Shown: positions 1,903 to 7,638 of the stretch, piece by piece
How the letters are laid out: each line of letters begins with the position of its first letter
Position numbering within the stretch: the stretch's first letter is position 1
Source of the DNA: an uncultured Erysipelotrichaceae bacterium
GTDB taxonomy: Bacteria; Bacillota_I; Bacilli_A; Erysipelotrichales; Erysipelotrichaceae
DNA length: 8,060 bases
NCBI GenBank assembly: GCA_902795905.1
Contig: CADBMY010000253.1
Coordinates: 1-8,060 of the forward strand
Direction of reading: 5' to 3'
Made by a program: the position numbers and the translations under genes
The notes under the pieces: model-generated
Database searches by the model: none
Told to the model about the DNA's origin: nothing
The model's input: the letters and a program-made list of their open reading frames with translations, nothing else

Positions 1903-1922
1903 TCTTTTTCCTCCTGATAAAC

Positions 1923-1951
1923 AAAAACCGTATACGGGATTCCGTATACGG
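1923..1951 (-). terminator. Leader terminator (attenuator) just upstream of hflK
   Basis: Two copies of the self-complementary decamer CCGTATACGG (1928-1937 and 1942-1951) are separated by 4 nt. On the minus strand they fold into a 10-bp stem with a tetraloop, followed directly by five T residues (1927-1923). This is an intrinsic terminator signature. It lies after the hflK promoter and ends only 7 nt before the hflK ribosome binding site, so it would stop transcription before the gene unless it is prevented from folding. Because each arm is itself palindromic, a double-stranded operator site is an alternative reading. Confidence 0.65.
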
Positions 1952-1967
1952 ATATCATGCATACGTT

Positions 1968-1990
1968 CCGCACACGGCACCACCGTGTAC
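1968..1990 (-). promoter_or_regulatory. Switching hairpin / antiterminator segment of the hflK leader
   Basis: On the minus strand GTACACGG (1990-1983) pairs with CCGTGTGC (1977-1970) over 8 bp including one G-U, with a 5-nt loop. The 3' arm is part of CCGTGTGCGG (1977-1968), which can instead pair along all 10 bases (with two G-U) with the first arm of the terminator (1951-1942). The 5' GTAC (1990-1987) overlaps the 3' strand of the proposed aptamer closing helix. The segment can therefore take mutually exclusive pairings, as expected of an expression platform. The pairings are seen in the sequence; the switching is inferred. Confidence 0.5.
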
Positions 1991-2071
1991 GAGTCTCACT
2001 TTTTCTGCCGGACCGGATACGATCGTGCTGACGATCCGACAACGATATATCGTAAGTTACTCCCTCGATAC
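1987..2071 (-). promoter_or_regulatory. Candidate riboswitch aptamer, yybP-ykoY (manganese)-like, in the hflK leader
   Basis: The predicted transcript starts at about 2071. Its first bases, GTA (2071-2069) and CGAG (2067-2064), pair with CTCG (1993-1990) and TAC (1989-1987) to close an ~85-nt domain, with one bulged base. Just inside the helix are GGAGTAAC on the 5' side (2063-2056) and GTGAGA on the 3' side (1999-1994). They mirror the GGGGAGUAG and GAGACC blocks I recall as conserved in yybP-ykoY manganese riboswitches. Inside are a palindromic hairpin (ACGATATATCGT, 2042-2053) and a second hairpin (2021-2036) whose loop region reads GTCAGCAC. UGUCGGAU and GUCCGGCA (about 2042-2035 and 2013-2006) can also pair. 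In known members of this class Mn2+ typically turns expression on. The class assignment is from memory and unverified, and hflKC would be an unusual target. A structured leader of another kind is the alternative. Confidence 0.42.
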
Positions 2072-2077
2072 AAGCGT

Positions 2078-2105
2078 ATTATACCATATCCGCAGGGGTT
2101 GTAAA
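2078..2105 (-). promoter_or_regulatory. Sigma-A promoter of hflKC
   Basis: On the minus strand TTTACA (2105-2100) and a perfect TATAAT (2083-2078) are 16 nt apart. A TG one base before the -10 box makes it an extended -10 promoter. Transcription should start near 2071, giving an untranslated leader of about 170 nt before hflK. Confidence 0.8.
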
Positions 2106-2173: not shown

Positions 2174-3016
2174 ATGGCTTATTATACGTCGGAAGCGCTG
2201 AATGACCGCCTGTATGTGATCACAGATGCGGCAGGGGTACATGCTTTTCTGGCTCTCGGAGAGCGCAGGGCATTACTGATGGATACCTGCTGCGGTCTCG
2301 GGGATATCCGGGAAGAGATAAAGAAGATCACATCGCTTCCGCTTACGGTATGGTGCAGCCACGGACATCTGGATCATGCCGGAGGAGCAGGGGTATTCCC
2401 TGTCGTTTATCTGAATCCGCTGGATCTGATGCTTGCCCACAGGCGGTGTACACGGGAGACACGGATCTGGTATGTGAAGCGGGTCCTGCGGGAGGAGTAT
2501 GATTTCCGTGAAGAGGAATATGTGCCGCAGAAGCTGACGGGTTTTCTGTCCCTGCATGATGGTGATGAGATCGATCTTGGCGGTCTTACGTGCAGAGCGG
2601 TATCTCTCGGCGGTCATACACCCGGCAGTATGTGTGTGCTGCTGAAGGAGCTGCGGATGGTCTTTCTGGCAGACGCATGCAACAGGATGACGTATATGAT
2701 GCTGGAGGAATCGCTTTCCCTGGAAGAGTATATCGATCATCTGAAGGCATTCCGTGATATGTATTATGATAGTTTTGATACAGGTCTTGTCTGTCATGAT
2801 GAGGCTGTTGTGGATAAGGTGATCATTCCCAACACGATCGAGGTGGGAGAAGAGATCCTGCGCGGTGAGGATCTGCACGAAGAACGGCTGTTTTTCGGAC
2901 ATGAAGGGGTGCTTGCCAAGGCGATCGTTCCGCATAAACCTGTACGAAGGGATGGCATCCTCGGTAATATTGCCTATAATAAGTATAAAGTTTTAAGGAA
3001 AGGAAATCCTCTATGA
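2174..3016 (+). CDS. Metallo-beta-lactamase-fold hydrolase
   Basis: A zinc-type hydrolase of the metallo-beta-lactamase superfamily, 280 residues, probably cytoplasmic (no signal peptide). The metal site is complete: SHGHLDH at 62-68 (the HxHxDH motif), the second histidine in GGHTPGS (H148), the bridging aspartate in ADAC (D167) and a last histidine in VCHDE (H208). About 70 residues after H208, with HKPVRRDG and a basic C-terminus, are not recognised. The substrate cannot be named; the superfamily includes glyoxalase II-like thioesterases, lactonases and phosphodiesterases. The ATG at 2174 has no ribosome binding site and sits at the predicted transcription start, so translation may be leaderless. 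A GTG at 2141 in frame would lie upstream of the -10 box and is unlikely. The stop overlaps the ROK start by 4 nt (ATGA), indicating translational coupling. Confidence 0.85.
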   Translation: MAYYTSEALNDRLYVITDAAGVHAFLALGERRALLMDTCCGLGDIREEIKKITSLPLTVWCSHGHLDHAGGAGVFPVVYLNPLDLMLAHRRCTRETRIWYVKRVLREEYDFREEEYVPQKLTGFLSLHDGDEIDLGGLTCRAVSLGGHTPGSMCVLLKELRMVFLADACNRMTYMMLEESLSLEEYIDHLKAFRDMYYDSFDTGLVCHDEAVVDKVIIPNTIEVGEEILRGEDLHEERLFFGHEGVLAKAIVPHKPVRRDGILGNIAYNKYKVLRKGNPL

Positions 3017-3945
3017 AACAGTATCTGGTATTCGACATCGGCGGTACATTTGTCAAATATGCATTAATGAATGATCATGCAGAGATCCTCGAGAATAATA
3101 AGATCCCCACAGACCGTGAGTCAGCGGAAGGACTTCTGGCCTCCATGAAAGAGGTGGCTGACCGCTACGAAGGCCGCTTTGAAGGCTGTGCGGTATCCAT
3201 GCCCGGAAGGATCGACACAAAGAACGGTATCGCGATCACTGCCGGTGCTCTCGGAAAAACATTAACGGGATTTCCTTTTGGTCCGGAATTAAGCAAAGTC
3301 CTCGGCAAGCCGGTGGTCATTGCCAACGACGGCAAGTGTGCTGCAGCGGCAGAAGCCTGGCAGGGTGCCCTGAAGGATGTCGAGAACGGTTTTGTGATCG
3401 TCTTCGGTACAGGGATCGGCGGCGGTATCGTCATCGGCGGTAAGACATACTTCGGATCACATTTCAGTTCCGGTGAAGTCAGCGGTATGATCTATGACGG
3501 ACAGATGGTCACGGACGGCTTTGTTCAGGAGATGAATTTCAGAAAACCTTCTCCGGGTTGGGCATATCAGGCTTCCGCATCATCACTGCTGCGTAAGTAT
3601 AAGACAAGGAAAGGAATTGACCTTGATGAAGATATCTCCGGTGAGGAGTTCTTTGAGGCTGTACGCAGCGGCGAAGAGGAAGCGAAGGAAGTCCTGGATG
3701 AATTTGCCAGATGTGCAGCTACCGGATTCTTTAATATTCAGATCCTGTTTGATGTAGAGAAGATCGCTGTCAGCGGCGGTATTTCCAATGCTCCGGAATT
3801 ACTGCCGGCACTGCAGGAGGCTGTACATGATGTGTTTAAGAGGTTCGAGAACAGCCCGGCTGTGGAGCCTGAAGTTGTTAAGTGTCATTACGGTTCCGAG
3901 GCCAATCTTGTCGGAGCACTGAAGATCTATCTGGATCAGGAATAG
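3013..3945 (+). CDS. ROK-family sugar kinase
   Basis: A cytoplasmic, ATP-dependent sugar kinase of the ROK family, 310 residues, which is the usual length. The N-terminal phosphate-binding motif is DIGGTFVK (8-15). The catalytic aspartate is D106 in ANDGKCAA, and GTGIGGG (132-138) is the second phosphate-contacting loop. The usual zinc site is absent: the GE-x-GH motif reads GEVSGM (154-159) with glycine where the histidine should be, and no CxCGxxGC cluster follows. This suggests a zinc-free subgroup, as in some beta-glucoside kinases and related Firmicutes proteins. It has no DNA-binding N-terminus, so it is a kinase and not a ROK repressor. The sugar is unknown. The ATG overlaps the preceding stop by 4 nt; GGAAAGG-type bases just upstream act as ribosome binding site. 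Confidence 0.88.
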   Translation: MKQYLVFDIGGTFVKYALMNDHAEILENNKIPTDRESAEGLLASMKEVADRYEGRFEGCAVSMPGRIDTKNGIAITAGALGKTLTGFPFGPELSKVLGKPVVIANDGKCAAAAEAWQGALKDVENGFVIVFGTGIGGGIVIGGKTYFGSHFSSGEVSGMIYDGQMVTDGFVQEMNFRKPSPGWAYQASASSLLRKYKTRKGIDLDEDISGEEFFEAVRSGEEEAKEVLDEFARCAATGFFNIQILFDVEKIAVSGGISNAPELLPALQEAVHDVFKRFENSPAVEPEVVKCHYGSEANLVGALKIYLDQE

Positions 3946-3950
3946 TTAAC

Positions 3951-3972
3951 ACTGCGTAAGCAGTACGGAGGG
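3951..3972 (+). promoter_or_regulatory. Small hairpin and ribosome binding site in front of trkA
   Basis: The 30-nt gap between the ROK stop and trkA holds a 5-bp stem (ACTGC, 3951-3955; GCAGT, 3960-3964) with a GTAA loop, a GNRA-type tetraloop. The strong GGAGGG ribosome binding site (3967-3972) follows 2 nt later. It has no T run, so it is not a terminator. It could keep the ribosome binding site open or be an mRNA processing or stability element. The function is inferred. Confidence 0.35.
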
Positions 3973-3975
3973 TAT

Positions 3976-5337
3976 ATGAAGATCGTAGTTGCCGGAGCCG
4001 GTAAAGTAGGTTCATCGCTGGTCAGCCAGCTGGTAAATGAAGGACATGAGATCACTGTTGTAGACCGGGATACCGATGTTCTGGAAGAAACCATGCAGAT
4101 GTATGATGTGATCGGTGTACAGGGAAATGCAGCATCGATGGAAGCACTGGAAGAGGCAGGCATACGTACTGCCGATCTTCTGATTGCAGCGACAGACCGT
4201 GACGAGGTCAATCTGCTGTCCTGTCTGACAGCACACGGACTGAATCCCGACCTGCATACCATCGGCAGGATCAGAGATAAGGACTACCGCGCACAGGCTT
4301 ACCAGATGCGTGATTATTTTGCCCTGAACTACGTGATCAATCCCGAACATGAAGCTGCGATCGAGATGCGCAGACTGCTGAATTTCCCGGGTTTCCTGGG
4401 TCTTGAGACATTTGCCAAGGGCAATGTGGAGATCGCTGTATTGAAGATCGGAGAGGACAGTGCTCTTAATGGTATTAAACTGTCCGGTATGAATGATATC
4501 GTACACTGCCATGTGCTGGTCTGTGCGGTACAGAGAAACGGTGAATGCATTATTCCTGACGGTAATTTTGTGTTCAGAAACAATGATCTGATCTACGTTA
4601 CGGCATCTTCTTCCAATCTTTCCGTACTGCTGAAGAATCTTGGTATTATTACCCGCAAGGTCAGAAGTGTACTGATCGCCGGCGGCAGTCTGATCAGTTA
4701 TTATCTTGCCAAGGAACTGGAAAGCAGCGGCATTTCCTCGACGATCGTGGAAGCGAAACGTGAGCGCTGTGAGGAACTGGCAATGTTACTGCCGAATACG
4801 CGGATCATTGTCGGTGATGCCAGCAGTCAGGCTTTCCTGGACAGTGTTGGTATTGATGACTTTGATGCGATGGTCACATTAACGGGTCTGGACGAACTGA
4901 ACATCGTTATTTCACTGTACGGCAATTCCCGCAAGGTACCGCATCTGATCACAAAGCTGAGTCATGCCGAGAATAACCGGATGCTGGATTCGCTGCCTCT
5001 TGGCAGTGTGATCGCACCGAAGGAGCTGGTATGCAGCTCGATCGTACGGTATGTCAGAGCGATGCAGAACAAGGAAGGTGCGGCGATCACGATCCACCGT
5101 ATTGCGGACGGCCAGGGTGAAGCCATTGAATTTAACGTGGATGAAGACACTAAATATCTCGGTGTGCCTCTGAAAGATATGAATCTGAAACCGAACGTGC
5201 TGATCGCAAGTATCACCGACGGAATGAATACGGAGATCTCTACCGGAAACAGTAAGTTTAAGGTCGGCGATAATGTGATCGTGGTAACGAACAAGACGAC
5301 ATCCATCCGTCAGCTGAATGATATCTTTGAGGACTAA
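3976..5337 (+). CDS. trkA: Trk potassium uptake protein TrkA (two RCK modules)
   Basis: The cytoplasmic regulatory subunit of the Trk K+ transporter. It assembles on TrkH and gates it in response to bound nucleotide (NAD(H), ATP/ADP in studied members). At 453 residues it is the full-length, duplicated form. The first Rossmann/RCK_N module starts MKIVVAGAGKVG (GAGKVG, 7-12) with acidic D30 closing the dinucleotide site. An RCK_C lobe spans about 140-225. The second RCK_N begins near 230, and a final RCK_C covers about 366-450. In the second module the glycine-rich turn reads GGSLIS (236-241) where GGGxIG is usual, while acidic E259 is kept, so nucleotide binding there may be weaker or altered. 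GGAGGG lies just ahead of the ATG. It precedes trkH by 8 nt in the same operon. Confidence 0.93.
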   Translation: MKIVVAGAGKVGSSLVSQLVNEGHEITVVDRDTDVLEETMQMYDVIGVQGNAASMEALEEAGIRTADLLIAATDRDEVNLLSCLTAHGLNPDLHTIGRIRDKDYRAQAYQMRDYFALNYVINPEHEAAIEMRRLLNFPGFLGLETFAKGNVEIAVLKIGEDSALNGIKLSGMNDIVHCHVLVCAVQRNGECIIPDGNFVFRNNDLIYVTASSSNLSVLLKNLGIITRKVRSVLIAGGSLISYYLAKELESSGISSTIVEAKRERCEELAMLLPNTRIIVGDASSQAFLDSVGIDDFDAMVTLTGLDELNIVISLYGNSRKVPHLITKLSHAENNRMLDSLPLGSVIAPKELVCSSIVRYVRAMQNKEGAAITIHRIADGQGEAIEFNVDEDTKYLGVPLKDMNLKPNVLIASITDGMNTEISTGNSKFKVGDNVIVVTNKTTSIRQLNDIFED

Positions 5338-5345
5338 ACCTGCAT

Positions 5346-6803
5346 ATGAACTATAAAATGATCGGACGCCTGATCGCGCCTATTCTGTGTATCGAAGCAG
5401 TATTCATGCTGCCGGCACTGGGGATCGCTCACCTTGACGGGAGTAATGCTGCTGTGCGGGCTTTTGCGATGACGATTGCTGCTTCGGTGCTGGTAGCAGG
5501 ACTTCTGTGGGTCGGTACATCCAATGCACCCCGCAGAGGTTTTTATGCGCGTGAAGGCTTTGTGCTTACCGGTGCAGCCTGGATCGTCATGTCGGTCTTC
5601 GGTGCGCTGCCGTTCTGGATCTCCGGTGAGATCCCGCACTTTATCGATGCGCTGTTTGAGACGGTATCGGGCTTTACTACGACCGGTTCAAGTATCCTGC
5701 TGAATGTCGAGGAGATGTGCAGAGGCATGCTGTACTGGCGCAGCTTTACACACTGGGTCGGCGGTATGGGCGTACTGGTCTTCCTGCTGGCGATCGTCCC
5801 GATGAGCGGCAAGAATGAAGGCTTTACCCTGCATATTCTGAGAGCGGAGAGCCCGGGTCCTTCCGTAGGCAAACTGGTGCCGAGAATGCGTCAGACAGCG
5901 AAGATCCTGTATCTTCTGTATATTATGCTGACAGTGCTCGATGTCCTGTTCCTGATGCTGGGCGGTATGCCGCTGTTTGATGCATTATGTACAGCGTATG
6001 GCACAGCCGGTACCGGCGGCTTTGGCATCAAGGCGGATTCCATTGCCGGCTACAGTCCGTATCTGCAGAATGTCACAACGATATTCATGCTGCTGTTCGG
6101 TGTCAACTTCAGCTGTTACTATCTGCTGCTTCTGAAACGTGTGAAGGATGTCTTCAACGATGAAGAACTGCGTACATATGTCGGGGTTGTTGTCGTCAGT
6201 GCATTACTGATCGCGTTCAGTATCCGCGGTCTTTACCACTCTCTCGGAGAAGTGCTGCGGGTATCGTTCTTCCAGGTCGCTACCGTGATCACGACGACCG
6301 GTTTTGCGACAGCGGACTTTAACCAGTGGCCGGCATTTGCCAAGACGATCCTCGTGCTGCTGATGTTCTGCGGTGCCTGTGCAGGCAGTACCGGCGGCGG
6401 TATCAAGGTTGCCAGGATCCTGCTGCTGATCAGGAGTTTCCGCAGAAACCTGCACCAGAATCTGAGACCCCGTGAGATCAGTAATATCCGCATGAACGGA
6501 GCCAAGGTCGATGAGAAGGTCGTCAGTAATGTCGATGCCTATCTGATCGGGTATATGGGTATTATCGTGGTCAGTTTCCTGATCCTGTCTCTGGACGGGT
6601 TCTCATTTGAGACAAACCTGACGGCAGTGATCGCAACTTTCAACAATATCGGACCGGGTCTTGACATGGTCGGACCGGTAGGCAATTATTCTGCGTTCAG
6701 TGATCTTTCCAAGCTTGTCATGATCTTTGACATGCTGGCGGGAAGACTGGAGATCTATCCGATCGTACTGCTGTTCTCGCGCAGTACATGGTCAAGAAAG
6801 TGA
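5346..6803 (+). CDS. trkH: Trk potassium uptake protein TrkH (channel subunit)
   Basis: The membrane-embedded K+-conducting subunit, 485 residues, within the family's usual length. It is built from four membrane-pore-membrane repeats plus two extra N-terminal helices. All four selectivity-filter loops can be read: TTTGSS (111-116), GTAGTGGFG (219-227), TTTGFATAD (317-325) and NNIGPGL (433-439). The TrkH-typical CAGSTGGGIKVAR spans about 345-357, the region of the intramembrane gating loop. AGRLE (466-470) near the C-terminus is also conserved in the family. It starts 8 nt after trkA with only a weak GAGGA about 12 nt upstream, inside the end of trkA, so translation is probably coupled to trkA. 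The TGA stop overlaps the ribosome binding site of the next gene. Confidence 0.94.
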   Translation: MNYKMIGRLIAPILCIEAVFMLPALGIAHLDGSNAAVRAFAMTIAASVLVAGLLWVGTSNAPRRGFYAREGFVLTGAAWIVMSVFGALPFWISGEIPHFIDALFETVSGFTTTGSSILLNVEEMCRGMLYWRSFTHWVGGMGVLVFLLAIVPMSGKNEGFTLHILRAESPGPSVGKLVPRMRQTAKILYLLYIMLTVLDVLFLMLGGMPLFDALCTAYGTAGTGGFGIKADSIAGYSPYLQNVTTIFMLLFGVNFSCYYLLLLKRVKDVFNDEELRTYVGVVVVSALLIAFSIRGLYHSLGEVLRVSFFQVATVITTTGFATADFNQWPAFAKTILVLLMFCGACAGSTGGGIKVARILLLIRSFRRNLHQNLRPREISNIRMNGAKVDEKVVSNVDAYLIGYMGIIVVSFLILSLDGFSFETNLTAVIATFNNIGPGLDMVGPVGNYSAFSDLSKLVMIFDMLAGRLEIYPIVLLFSRSTWSRK

Positions 6804-6810
6804 GGCTGAC

Positions 6811-7638
6811 ATGGCACTTGTTCATCTGAATTTCGAAAGTCACTATCTTTACAACAATACCGATGTCAATATCATCCTGCCCGATATGCCGCGTACGGAT
6901 AAGCCGAAAGACTTCTACCGTTCCGGGAAGAAGTACAAGGTCCTGTGGCTGCTGCACGGTACCTTCGGCGACTATACCGACTGGATCCGCAAAAGCAATG
7001 TCGAGCTGTACGCCTGTGAGAAGGATGTGATCATCGTCATGCCTTCAGCGCTGAATTCCGACTATGTGGACTGGCATAATTTCGCGATGGGATACAACAT
7101 GTATTCCTACCTGACCGAAGAACTGATGCCCCTGATCTACGGCTGGTATCCTGCCAGTGATAAAAGAGAAGATAACTTCATTGCCGGTCTTTCCATGGGC
7201 GGTGCCGGAACAGCGCTCTATGCCCTGAATCATCCGGAACTGTTTGCCGGTGCCTATGTCATGAGCTCCAGCCCCAGACACTACAGCGATACATCTCTGA
7301 GCGGCACACAGTTTGCCGGAAGAGCGAAGAATGTGATCGAGAATGCCGGCGGTATGGACGCATACCTGAATTCCTATCAGAACACATGGGATCTGGTGAA
7401 GAAGAGAGTTGAAGAGAAGGCAGATCTGCCTGAGATGGTCTTTGCCTGCGGTACCAGTGATACGCTGGTATATAAGTCCTTCAAGGCATTTGAGAAGTAT
7501 GCCAACGAAGTAGGACTGAAGGCAGACTTCATCGAAGTAGATGGCTATACCCACGAATGGCGGTTCTGGGATCTCTGCATACAGGACTGTCTGAACAGAT
7601 TTGCGCCGAAAGAAGAAAACGCAGGGAATGCATTCTAG
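6811..7638 (+). CDS. Alpha/beta-hydrolase esterase (tributyrin esterase / esterase D-like)
   Basis: A serine esterase of 275 residues, similar in layout to the EstA tributyrin esterases and the esterase D/S-formylglutathione hydrolase group. Members cleave short-chain acyl or acetyl esters. The nucleophile elbow is GLSMG (126-130, S128). LLHGTFGD (48-55) supplies the oxyanion loop. The likely acid is D217 in CGTSDTLV and the likely base H248 in YTHEW. There is no signal peptide or membrane segment, so it should be cytoplasmic. The ATG at 6811 was chosen because GAGG (6802-6805), overlapping the trkH stop, lies 5 nt before it and MALVHLNFES matches the family's N-terminal strand. An in-frame extension from 6727 would lie inside trkH. 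It is the last gene of the operon and is followed at once by a terminator. The natural substrate is unknown. Confidence 0.88.
   Translation: MALVHLNFESHYLYNNTDVNIILPDMPRTDKPKDFYRSGKKYKVLWLLHGTFGDYTDWIRKSNVELYACEKDVIIVMPSALNSDYVDWHNFAMGYNMYSYLTEELMPLIYGWYPASDKREDNFIAGLSMGGAGTALYALNHPELFAGAYVMSSSPRHYSDTSLSGTQFAGRAKNVIENAGGMDAYLNSYQNTWDLVKKRVEEKADLPEMVFACGTSDTLVYKSFKAFEKYANEVGLKADFIEVDGYTHEWRFWDLCIQDCLNRFAPKEENAGNAF

Follow-up and report, generated by a model that had tools for sequence, protein, structure and literature searches.

The closest described systems are the Mn2+-sensing RNAs of the yybP-ykoY class. In the crystal structures, the L3 loop of the X. oryzae RNA is ACAUACU and that of the L. 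lactis RNA is UCAAUUC, and the adenosine at L3 position 3, A48 and A41 respectively, makes the Mn-specific N7 contact (PMC6754395, PMC9190785); in PMC6754395, each structure is described as using a U at L3 position 4 or 5 for a U-turn. The L. lactis yoaB riboswitch is described as an ON switch acting through the P1.1 helix (PMC6754395, PMC9190785, PMC11087558). The L3 of E. coli alx is UCAUUAC and that of E. coli mntP is ACAUACU, and PMC9603457 describes an alx reporter that rises with Mn and with alkaline pH. Sherlock and Breaker considered divalents other than Mn2+ to be the likely ligands of some common yybP variants (PMC7266159).

We analysed a window of 8,060 nucleotides from an uncultured Erysipelotrichaceae bacterium, in which the hflKC genes and their leader lie on the minus strand in the order promoter, aptamer (2071-1987), terminator, Shine-Dalgarno sequence and hflK start at 1902. 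The coordinates of the features are given in Table 1. The leader 2071-1987 is quite probably a yybP-ykoY Mn2+ riboswitch which, in the model proposed here, likely turns hflKC on via antitermination when Mn2+ binds. A strong extended -10 promoter had been claimed in an earlier note made from the sequence and is present, with 11 of 12 consensus matches. A longer mechanical ORF with a GTG start at 1983 would cross the terminator and was set aside. The divergent neighbours on the plus strand (window 2174-7638) code for a metallo-beta-lactamase-fold protein, a ROK kinase, a TrkA/TrkH potassium uptake pair and an esterase.

Table 1. Features of the hflKC leader and genes, in window positions and in the order of transcription.
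Feature	Positions	Strand	Support
Promoter: TTTACA 2105-2100, 16 nt, TG-extended TATAAT 2083-2078	2078..2105	-	consensus scan, 11/12
Whole domain, putative yybP-ykoY-type aptamer, 85 nt	1987..2071	-	mntP-only model R2 and covariation on 12 hflK leaders
P1 switch helix, 5' strand GUA-U-CGAG, partner 1993-1987	2064..2071	-	96.1% of cells paired
L1, 5' side, GGAGUA	2058..2063	-	GGAGTA in 157/158 aligned elements
P1.2, 5' strand ACUU, partner AAGU 2001-1998	2054..2057	-	three pairs counted: 100% paired, 2/3 changed on both sides
P2 hairpin ACGAUAUAUCGU	2042..2053	-	97.6% of cells paired; 4/4 counted pairs changed on both sides
P3: lower helix 2040-2032/2015-2007, upper helix 2024-2022/2018-2016	2007..2040	-	8 lower pairs 100% paired, 3 upper pairs 97.0% paired
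L3 loop UCAGCAC, A2029 in third position	2025..2031	-	C2 and A3 in 158/158 aligned elements, 7 nt in 156
L1, 3' side, GAGA	1994..1997	-	GAGA 111, AAGA 46, CAGA 1 among 158
P1, 3' strand CUCGUAC, also start of anti-P1 segment A	1987..1993	-	helix prediction
Anti-P1 hairpin, 1992-1982 with 1978-1968 (predicted ligand-free state)	1968..1992	-	-16.7 kcal/mol
Antiterminator: segment B core 1977-1968 (CCGUGUGCGG) with terminator 5' arm 1951-1942 (CCGUAUACGG)	1938..1982	-	-18.2 kcal/mol, 0/300 shuffles as strong
Intrinsic terminator: stem 1951-1928, then UUUUU	1923..1951	-	predicted, C:D -16.0 kcal/mol
Shine-Dalgarno AGGAGG	1910..1915	-	sequence
hflK (SPFH / Band 7), 311 aa	967..1902	-	PF01145 1.7e-26
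hflC (SPFH / Band 7), 287 aa	87..950	-	PF01145 1.6e-26

The features expected of a yybP-ykoY aptamer are present, namely an L1 with GGAGUA and GAGA closed by P1, and, in the 5' half of P3, a 7-nt L3 whose third base is an adenosine. The bulged closing helix, with GGAGTA and GAGA directly inside, was found where the earlier note had placed it, and the two internal hairpins described there correspond to P2 and to P3, which includes the GUCAGCAC stretch. No P4 hairpin was visible in the window, nor by eye in 20 aligned mntP leaders. The window RNA would thus form a three-way junction, compared to the four-way junction of the crystals, and P4 was not treated as class-defining because the mntP leaders lack it by eye too. 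Folding alone is weak evidence, since 21 of 200 shuffles folded as well as 2071-1985 (z = -1.30); for the 170-nt leader 2071-1902, z was -3.33 and none of 200 shuffles was as stable.

The search of the window with all Rfam models gave nothing above cut-off. RF00080, which the earlier note had proposed as a check, did not detect the hflK leader at any of the thresholds used, up to E 10. It gave a single weak match in the same genome (9.3 bits), elsewhere than the hflK leader, and matches in 18 of 100 relatives at E 0.1, none of them above cut-off. Ten of the 15 RF00080 matches with a downstream gene read stand before mntP (four checked against PF02659 positions). Since these same-order leaders of the Mn exporter gene mntP also score below cut-off, the silence of RF00080 does not refute the class. 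The low scores are likely due to the long P4 region of the model, which, read by eye, is missing from these RNAs. L036, a sister element of the same loop subtype, reached 23.2 bits with RF00080, its L3 being aligned on the ACAUACU of the model.

A covariance model, R2, was built from 20 of 23 mntP leaders (L038, L042 and L172 left out) and from no hflK leader. With filters off, the best R2 match in the window was exactly 1987-2071, with 41.6 bits and an E-value of 2.4e-9, the next-best one having 12.0 bits (E 0.12). All 12 element-bearing hflK leaders were recovered by R2 and none of the seven element-less ones. R1, a model from 8 sequences, also finds the mntP leaders. On the E. coli RNAs, R2 matched a fragment only of mntP (23.1 bits) and did not report alx at E up to 1, of which R1 matched a fragment only (11.6 bits, E 0.59). 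The assignment of minus strand 2071-1987 to the yybP-ykoY-type aptamers holds, and the class call of the earlier note is supported by the R2 match, the conserved GGAGTA and GAGA blocks and the covariation among hflK leaders.

We found an hflK orthologue at E 1e-60 in 19 of 70 genomes of the genus, which are Solobacterium-like Erysipelotrichaceae (Solobacterium itself belongs to this family). In 12 of the 19, the element stands upstream in the same arrangement, which confirms that its presence in hflK leaders is beyond chance; a search of both strands places it in L008 and L348 also. The seven other orthologues, 61-67% identical, showed no element at E 5. In the alignment of the 12 leaders, fitted to the model and comprising 11 distinct rows, 98.2% of cells pair compared to 27-34% with the partners slid, both partners have changed in 17 of the 25 pairs, and all five helices show compensatory variation. 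None of 500 shuffles equalled these leaders on four of five measures; the remaining one, further pair types, was not above shuffles (129/500). The block conservation and covariation that the earlier note had put forward as a test were thus clearly observed. A broader alignment with 76 distinct rows, also fitted to the model, showed changes of both partners in 21 of the 25 pairs. In the hflK leaders, the U.G pair next below the pair that closes L3 and the C-G pair one step further down are invariant; in the broader alignment, the U.G is replaced by C-G in 11 of the 76 rows.

The comparison with E. coli alx showed common GGGGAGUAAC and P1.2 ACUU/AAGU, GAUCG-loop-GAU in P3, the CCGGUC 3' strand and GUGAGAC. 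The two RNAs differ by a long extra hairpin (P4, by eye) between P3 and GAGACC, present in alx and absent from the window, and by their targets, a TerC-family exporter for alx and hflKC for the window leader. The same-order mntP leaders (L032-L048 and others) have the same helices as the window, the U.G and C-G pairs near L3 and no visible P4, but their L3 is mostly ACAUACU instead of UCAGCAC and their target is the Mn exporter gene. L. lactis yoaB shares with the window an L3 of the form UCA-n-n-n-C, with the adenosine at position 3 contacting Mn (PMC6754395, PMC9190785 and PMC11087558), while its L3, UCAAUUC, has the U-turn uridine and its junction is four-way. As described there, the 3' strand of the L. 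lactis P1.1 enters the terminator itself, whereas that of the window would act via an intermediate antiterminator.

We then consider the expression platform. Energy prediction gave a terminator and competing antiterminator segments in 12/12 hflK leaders, segment B being complementary each time to the terminator 5' arm, or to the arm plus loop; across these leaders, only 0-6 of 300 shuffles of B paired as strongly as B:C. The anti-P1 hairpin uses B itself in 10 of the 12. For L004 and L344, which are near-identical, the core of B stays in the loop of the best anti-P1 fold, so that the exclusion is only partial. Terminator-like sites were found within 110 nt after 122 of 157 elements (one of the 158 was too short) compared to 3 of 157 shuffled, the shuffles in the antiterminator and terminator tests preserving base composition only. 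According to the target, they follow 24/25 SPFH, 21/23 mntP, 14/28 exchanger and 0/4 P-type ATPase elements, and some targets may be controlled otherwise given the last two counts. From these predicted pairings we infer the order of events and the ligand-ON logic. In the ligand-free state, the P1 3' strand (A) would pair with segment B and the terminator C:D would form, stopping transcription before hflK. In the presence of ligand, the bound metal would hold P1 closed and A would be kept in P1; because P1 would stay closed, B would pair with C to form the antiterminator instead of the 1951-1928 terminator, leading to read-through into hflKC. High Mn would in this way give more SPFH scaffolds steering FtsH-type membrane quality control.

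The R1 model had matches in 60 of the 70 genus genomes at E 0.01, with up to 8 per genome, and in 166 of 294 sampled genomes of the order at E 1e-4, genus included. Three copies were found in the assembly of the window, before hflK, a Na/Ca exchanger (L105, G000:C102:589-676) and a CitMHS-type carrier (L118, G000:C239:5253-5339). Judging from these matches, the element is not private to hflKC, which is one target of a large regulon. The alignment contains 158 elements among those listed, of which 57 genomes of the genus supplied 150 and relatives in the order the other 8; the 8 training sequences of R1 are included. They come from 160 sources given to R1, which at E 0.001 failed to match two of them, L043 and L044, although the motif is visible by eye in L044. 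The downstream genes were chosen by a simple start-plus-Shine-Dalgarno rule, so that single calls can be wrong, and Pfam was run on representatives, in genomes that are largely MAG drafts; two of the 158 elements had no readable downstream gene. The targets are Na/Ca exchangers (28), SPFH proteins (25), Na/Pi cotransporters (23), mntP (23), ABC ATPases (15), a 562-aa membrane protein (14), CitMHS carriers (9), DUF975 proteins (5), P-type ATPases (4) and others with fewer elements. The 25 SPFH targets are made of 11 HflK, 12 flotillins and two more distant proteins that read as QmcA-like. The 562-aa family (L166, L191, L102 and others), of which the one representative scanned had no Pfam match, is possibly a new metal- or membrane-related protein. 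The L207 element precedes a Castor/Pollux-like ion channel.

In the L3 of the window, A2029 is the equivalent of A41 (L. lactis) and A48 (X. oryzae), and there is no U at positions 4 and 5, a property shared by 51 of the 158 elements. Loops of the type xCA(G/U)CAC were present in 95 of the 158. The mntP-type loop, defined as ACAU...U, was found as ACAUnnU in 23/23 mntP elements (ACAUACU in 20, ACAUAAU in 2 and ACAUGCU in 1) versus 0/135 elements with other targets; two 8-letter loops outside mntP start with ACAUA, those of L040 (P-type ATPase) and L210 (CitMHS carrier). The mntP gene of the genome studied here (L352, G000:C18:3730-4167) has a leader without R2 match, and 17 relatives in the genus have an mntP element. 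Among 20 mntP leaders picked for having no visible element, three gave weak R2 matches of 21-25 bits.

Outside the genus, scanning named genomes with the pattern CGTCA(G/T)CACG gave at least 119 stretches, the 80 matches listed with titles including Lachnospiraceae, Oscillospiraceae, Proteobacteria, Chloroflexi, Nitrospirae and Solobacterium. The downstream gene, chosen by the same start-plus-Shine-Dalgarno rule, could be read for 117 stretches. Among the matches listed, it codes for an exchanger (22), a P-type ATPase (19), a CitMHS carrier (14), TerC (14, in clusters of 9 and 5), OadB (5), an M48 protease (5), an SPFH protein (4), a pectate-lyase-like protein (3), a Na/Pi cotransporter (3), the 562-aa family (2), and further products seen once or twice each. 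The SPFH cases among the matches listed are L236 and L258 from Solobacterium and the flotillins L247 (Lachnospiraceae) and L279 (Oscillospiraceae). The M48 (HtpX-like) membrane protease cases, L243, L274, L307, L335 and L339, all have the loop UCAGCAC. At L229, L230 and L254, in Monoglobus MAGs, this loop type lies 77-80 nt before a large pectate-lyase-like gene, whose Pfam match in L254 is below cut-off.

Mn2+ appears as the likeliest ligand because the window L3 is near the alx UCAUUAC, that of a published responder to Mn and alkaline pH; by analogy, Mn2+ would be bound here, possibly aided by alkaline pH as reported for alx. Points against this main reading are the silent RF00080, the missing P4, the L3 without a U-turn uridine, the distinct L3 of the mntP leaders, the lean of the other targets towards Ca, Na and phosphate transport, the seven hflK orthologues with no element found, the further pair types that do not exceed shuffles, the partial exclusion in L004 and L344, and the weak match to alx. 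The main rival to this reading is an altered ion specificity, in which the class and the ON switch are the same and the xCA(G/U)CAC subtype senses another divalent, Ca2+ being the leading candidate. Pectate-lyase-like enzymes, such as those predicted behind the three Monoglobus elements (Pfam below cut-off), are Ca2+ dependent. Na/Ca exchangers, Na/Pi cotransporters, CitMHS-type carriers and P-type ATPases are prominent among the targets, no mntP is found among the 117 genes behind this loop in the matches listed, and the two loop types occur side by side in 9 of 57 genomes. A change of ion was also foreseen for yybP variants generally by Sherlock and Breaker (PMC7266159). However, the A3 that contacts Mn, C2, the loop length and L1 are all kept, and, relative to UCAGCAC, the loops of the RNAs published as Mn responsive have changes at positions 4-6 only (L. 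lactis) and 4-5 only (alx). The same heptamers also precede TerC genes, in 14 of at least 119 named elements. The mntP loop may just go along with mntP, loop types travelling with genes rather than being tuned to ligands. We regard another divalent as unlikely. A search of open-licence papers found no report of a Ca2+ riboswitch. Since both loops occur together in those nine genomes, the altered specificity considered for yybP variants in PMC7266159 is directly testable in the genus.

It is still less probable that alkaline pH or membrane stress is the main input with Mn2+ as a mere cofactor. Many of the regulon's genes code for Na+-coupled carriers and SPFH proteins, and in PMC9603457 alkaline pH elicits a response from both the alx and the mntP reporter, with pH 8.5 tightening Mn binding to the mntP leader; pH and Mn are described there as acting together, so this input does not exclude the Mn2+ reading. 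Finally, the leader might be an attenuator with a coincidental resemblance to the class, or it might bind a protein or be some unrelated RNA, for instance SSRC10 (RF02617, Streptococcus), which was the best Rfam match in the window with 23.4 bits for a cut-off of 56, RF00080 being silent. SSRC10 and the trpB, SR6 antitoxin, freshwater-2, IMES-4 and SNORD49 matches were rejected as being all below cut-off, those of trpB, SR6 antitoxin, freshwater-2 and IMES-4 falling mainly on the expression platform. The E-value of the mntP-only model and the covariation argue against such an origin, and the SSRC10 consensus itself shows, like the window, GGGAGuag, CGUCaaUACG and gaGaC blocks; this explanation is hardly credible. 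From its consensus, SSRC10 may be a pneumococcal/streptococcal Mn riboswitch filed under another name.

We favour Mn2+ as the ligand of a riboswitch that would increase SPFH scaffolds as the metal load grows, because the regulon joins several of the players of published TerC/FtsH work. In PMC10550928, the B. subtilis TerC proteins MeeF and MeeY co-purify with FtsH, HtpX, FloT and FloA, FtsH becomes essential when MeeF and MeeY are both missing, and meeY (ykoY) is under a Mn-responsive riboswitch; PMC7231995 describes that Mn excess at low Mg activates cleavage of MgtE by the FtsH adaptor YqgP. The genes found behind this RNA in different bacteria (TerC, flotillin, HflK and an HtpX-like protease) overlap with the B. 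subtilis TerC co-purification list, which was obtained by a different approach. In the open literature, to which the search was limited, subscription papers lying outside it, no report of yybP-ykoY together with hflK was found, yybP together with flotillin was found only in the TerC secretion paper, and no mention of SPFH was found in yybP-ykoY or manganese riboswitch papers.

The switch would serve to raise the level of SPFH scaffolds at high Mn, and through them to steer FtsH-type membrane quality control. More tentatively, and with rather low confidence, the xCA(G/U)CAC RNAs could be a functionally separate yybP-ykoY subclass with a re-tuned divalent site, running a membrane-homeostasis regulon made of SPFH proteins (HflK, flotillin and QmcA-like), HtpX-type proteases, TerC and divalent or Na+-coupled carriers; if this separate subclass is true, one RNA would set membrane proteolysis and ion export together in these bacteria. 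With the Mn2+ riboswitch that we favour, the Mn-type class would gain a kind of target that was not found reported in the open literature, SPFH scaffolds of the type acting on FtsH, and metal status would be tied to membrane quality control.
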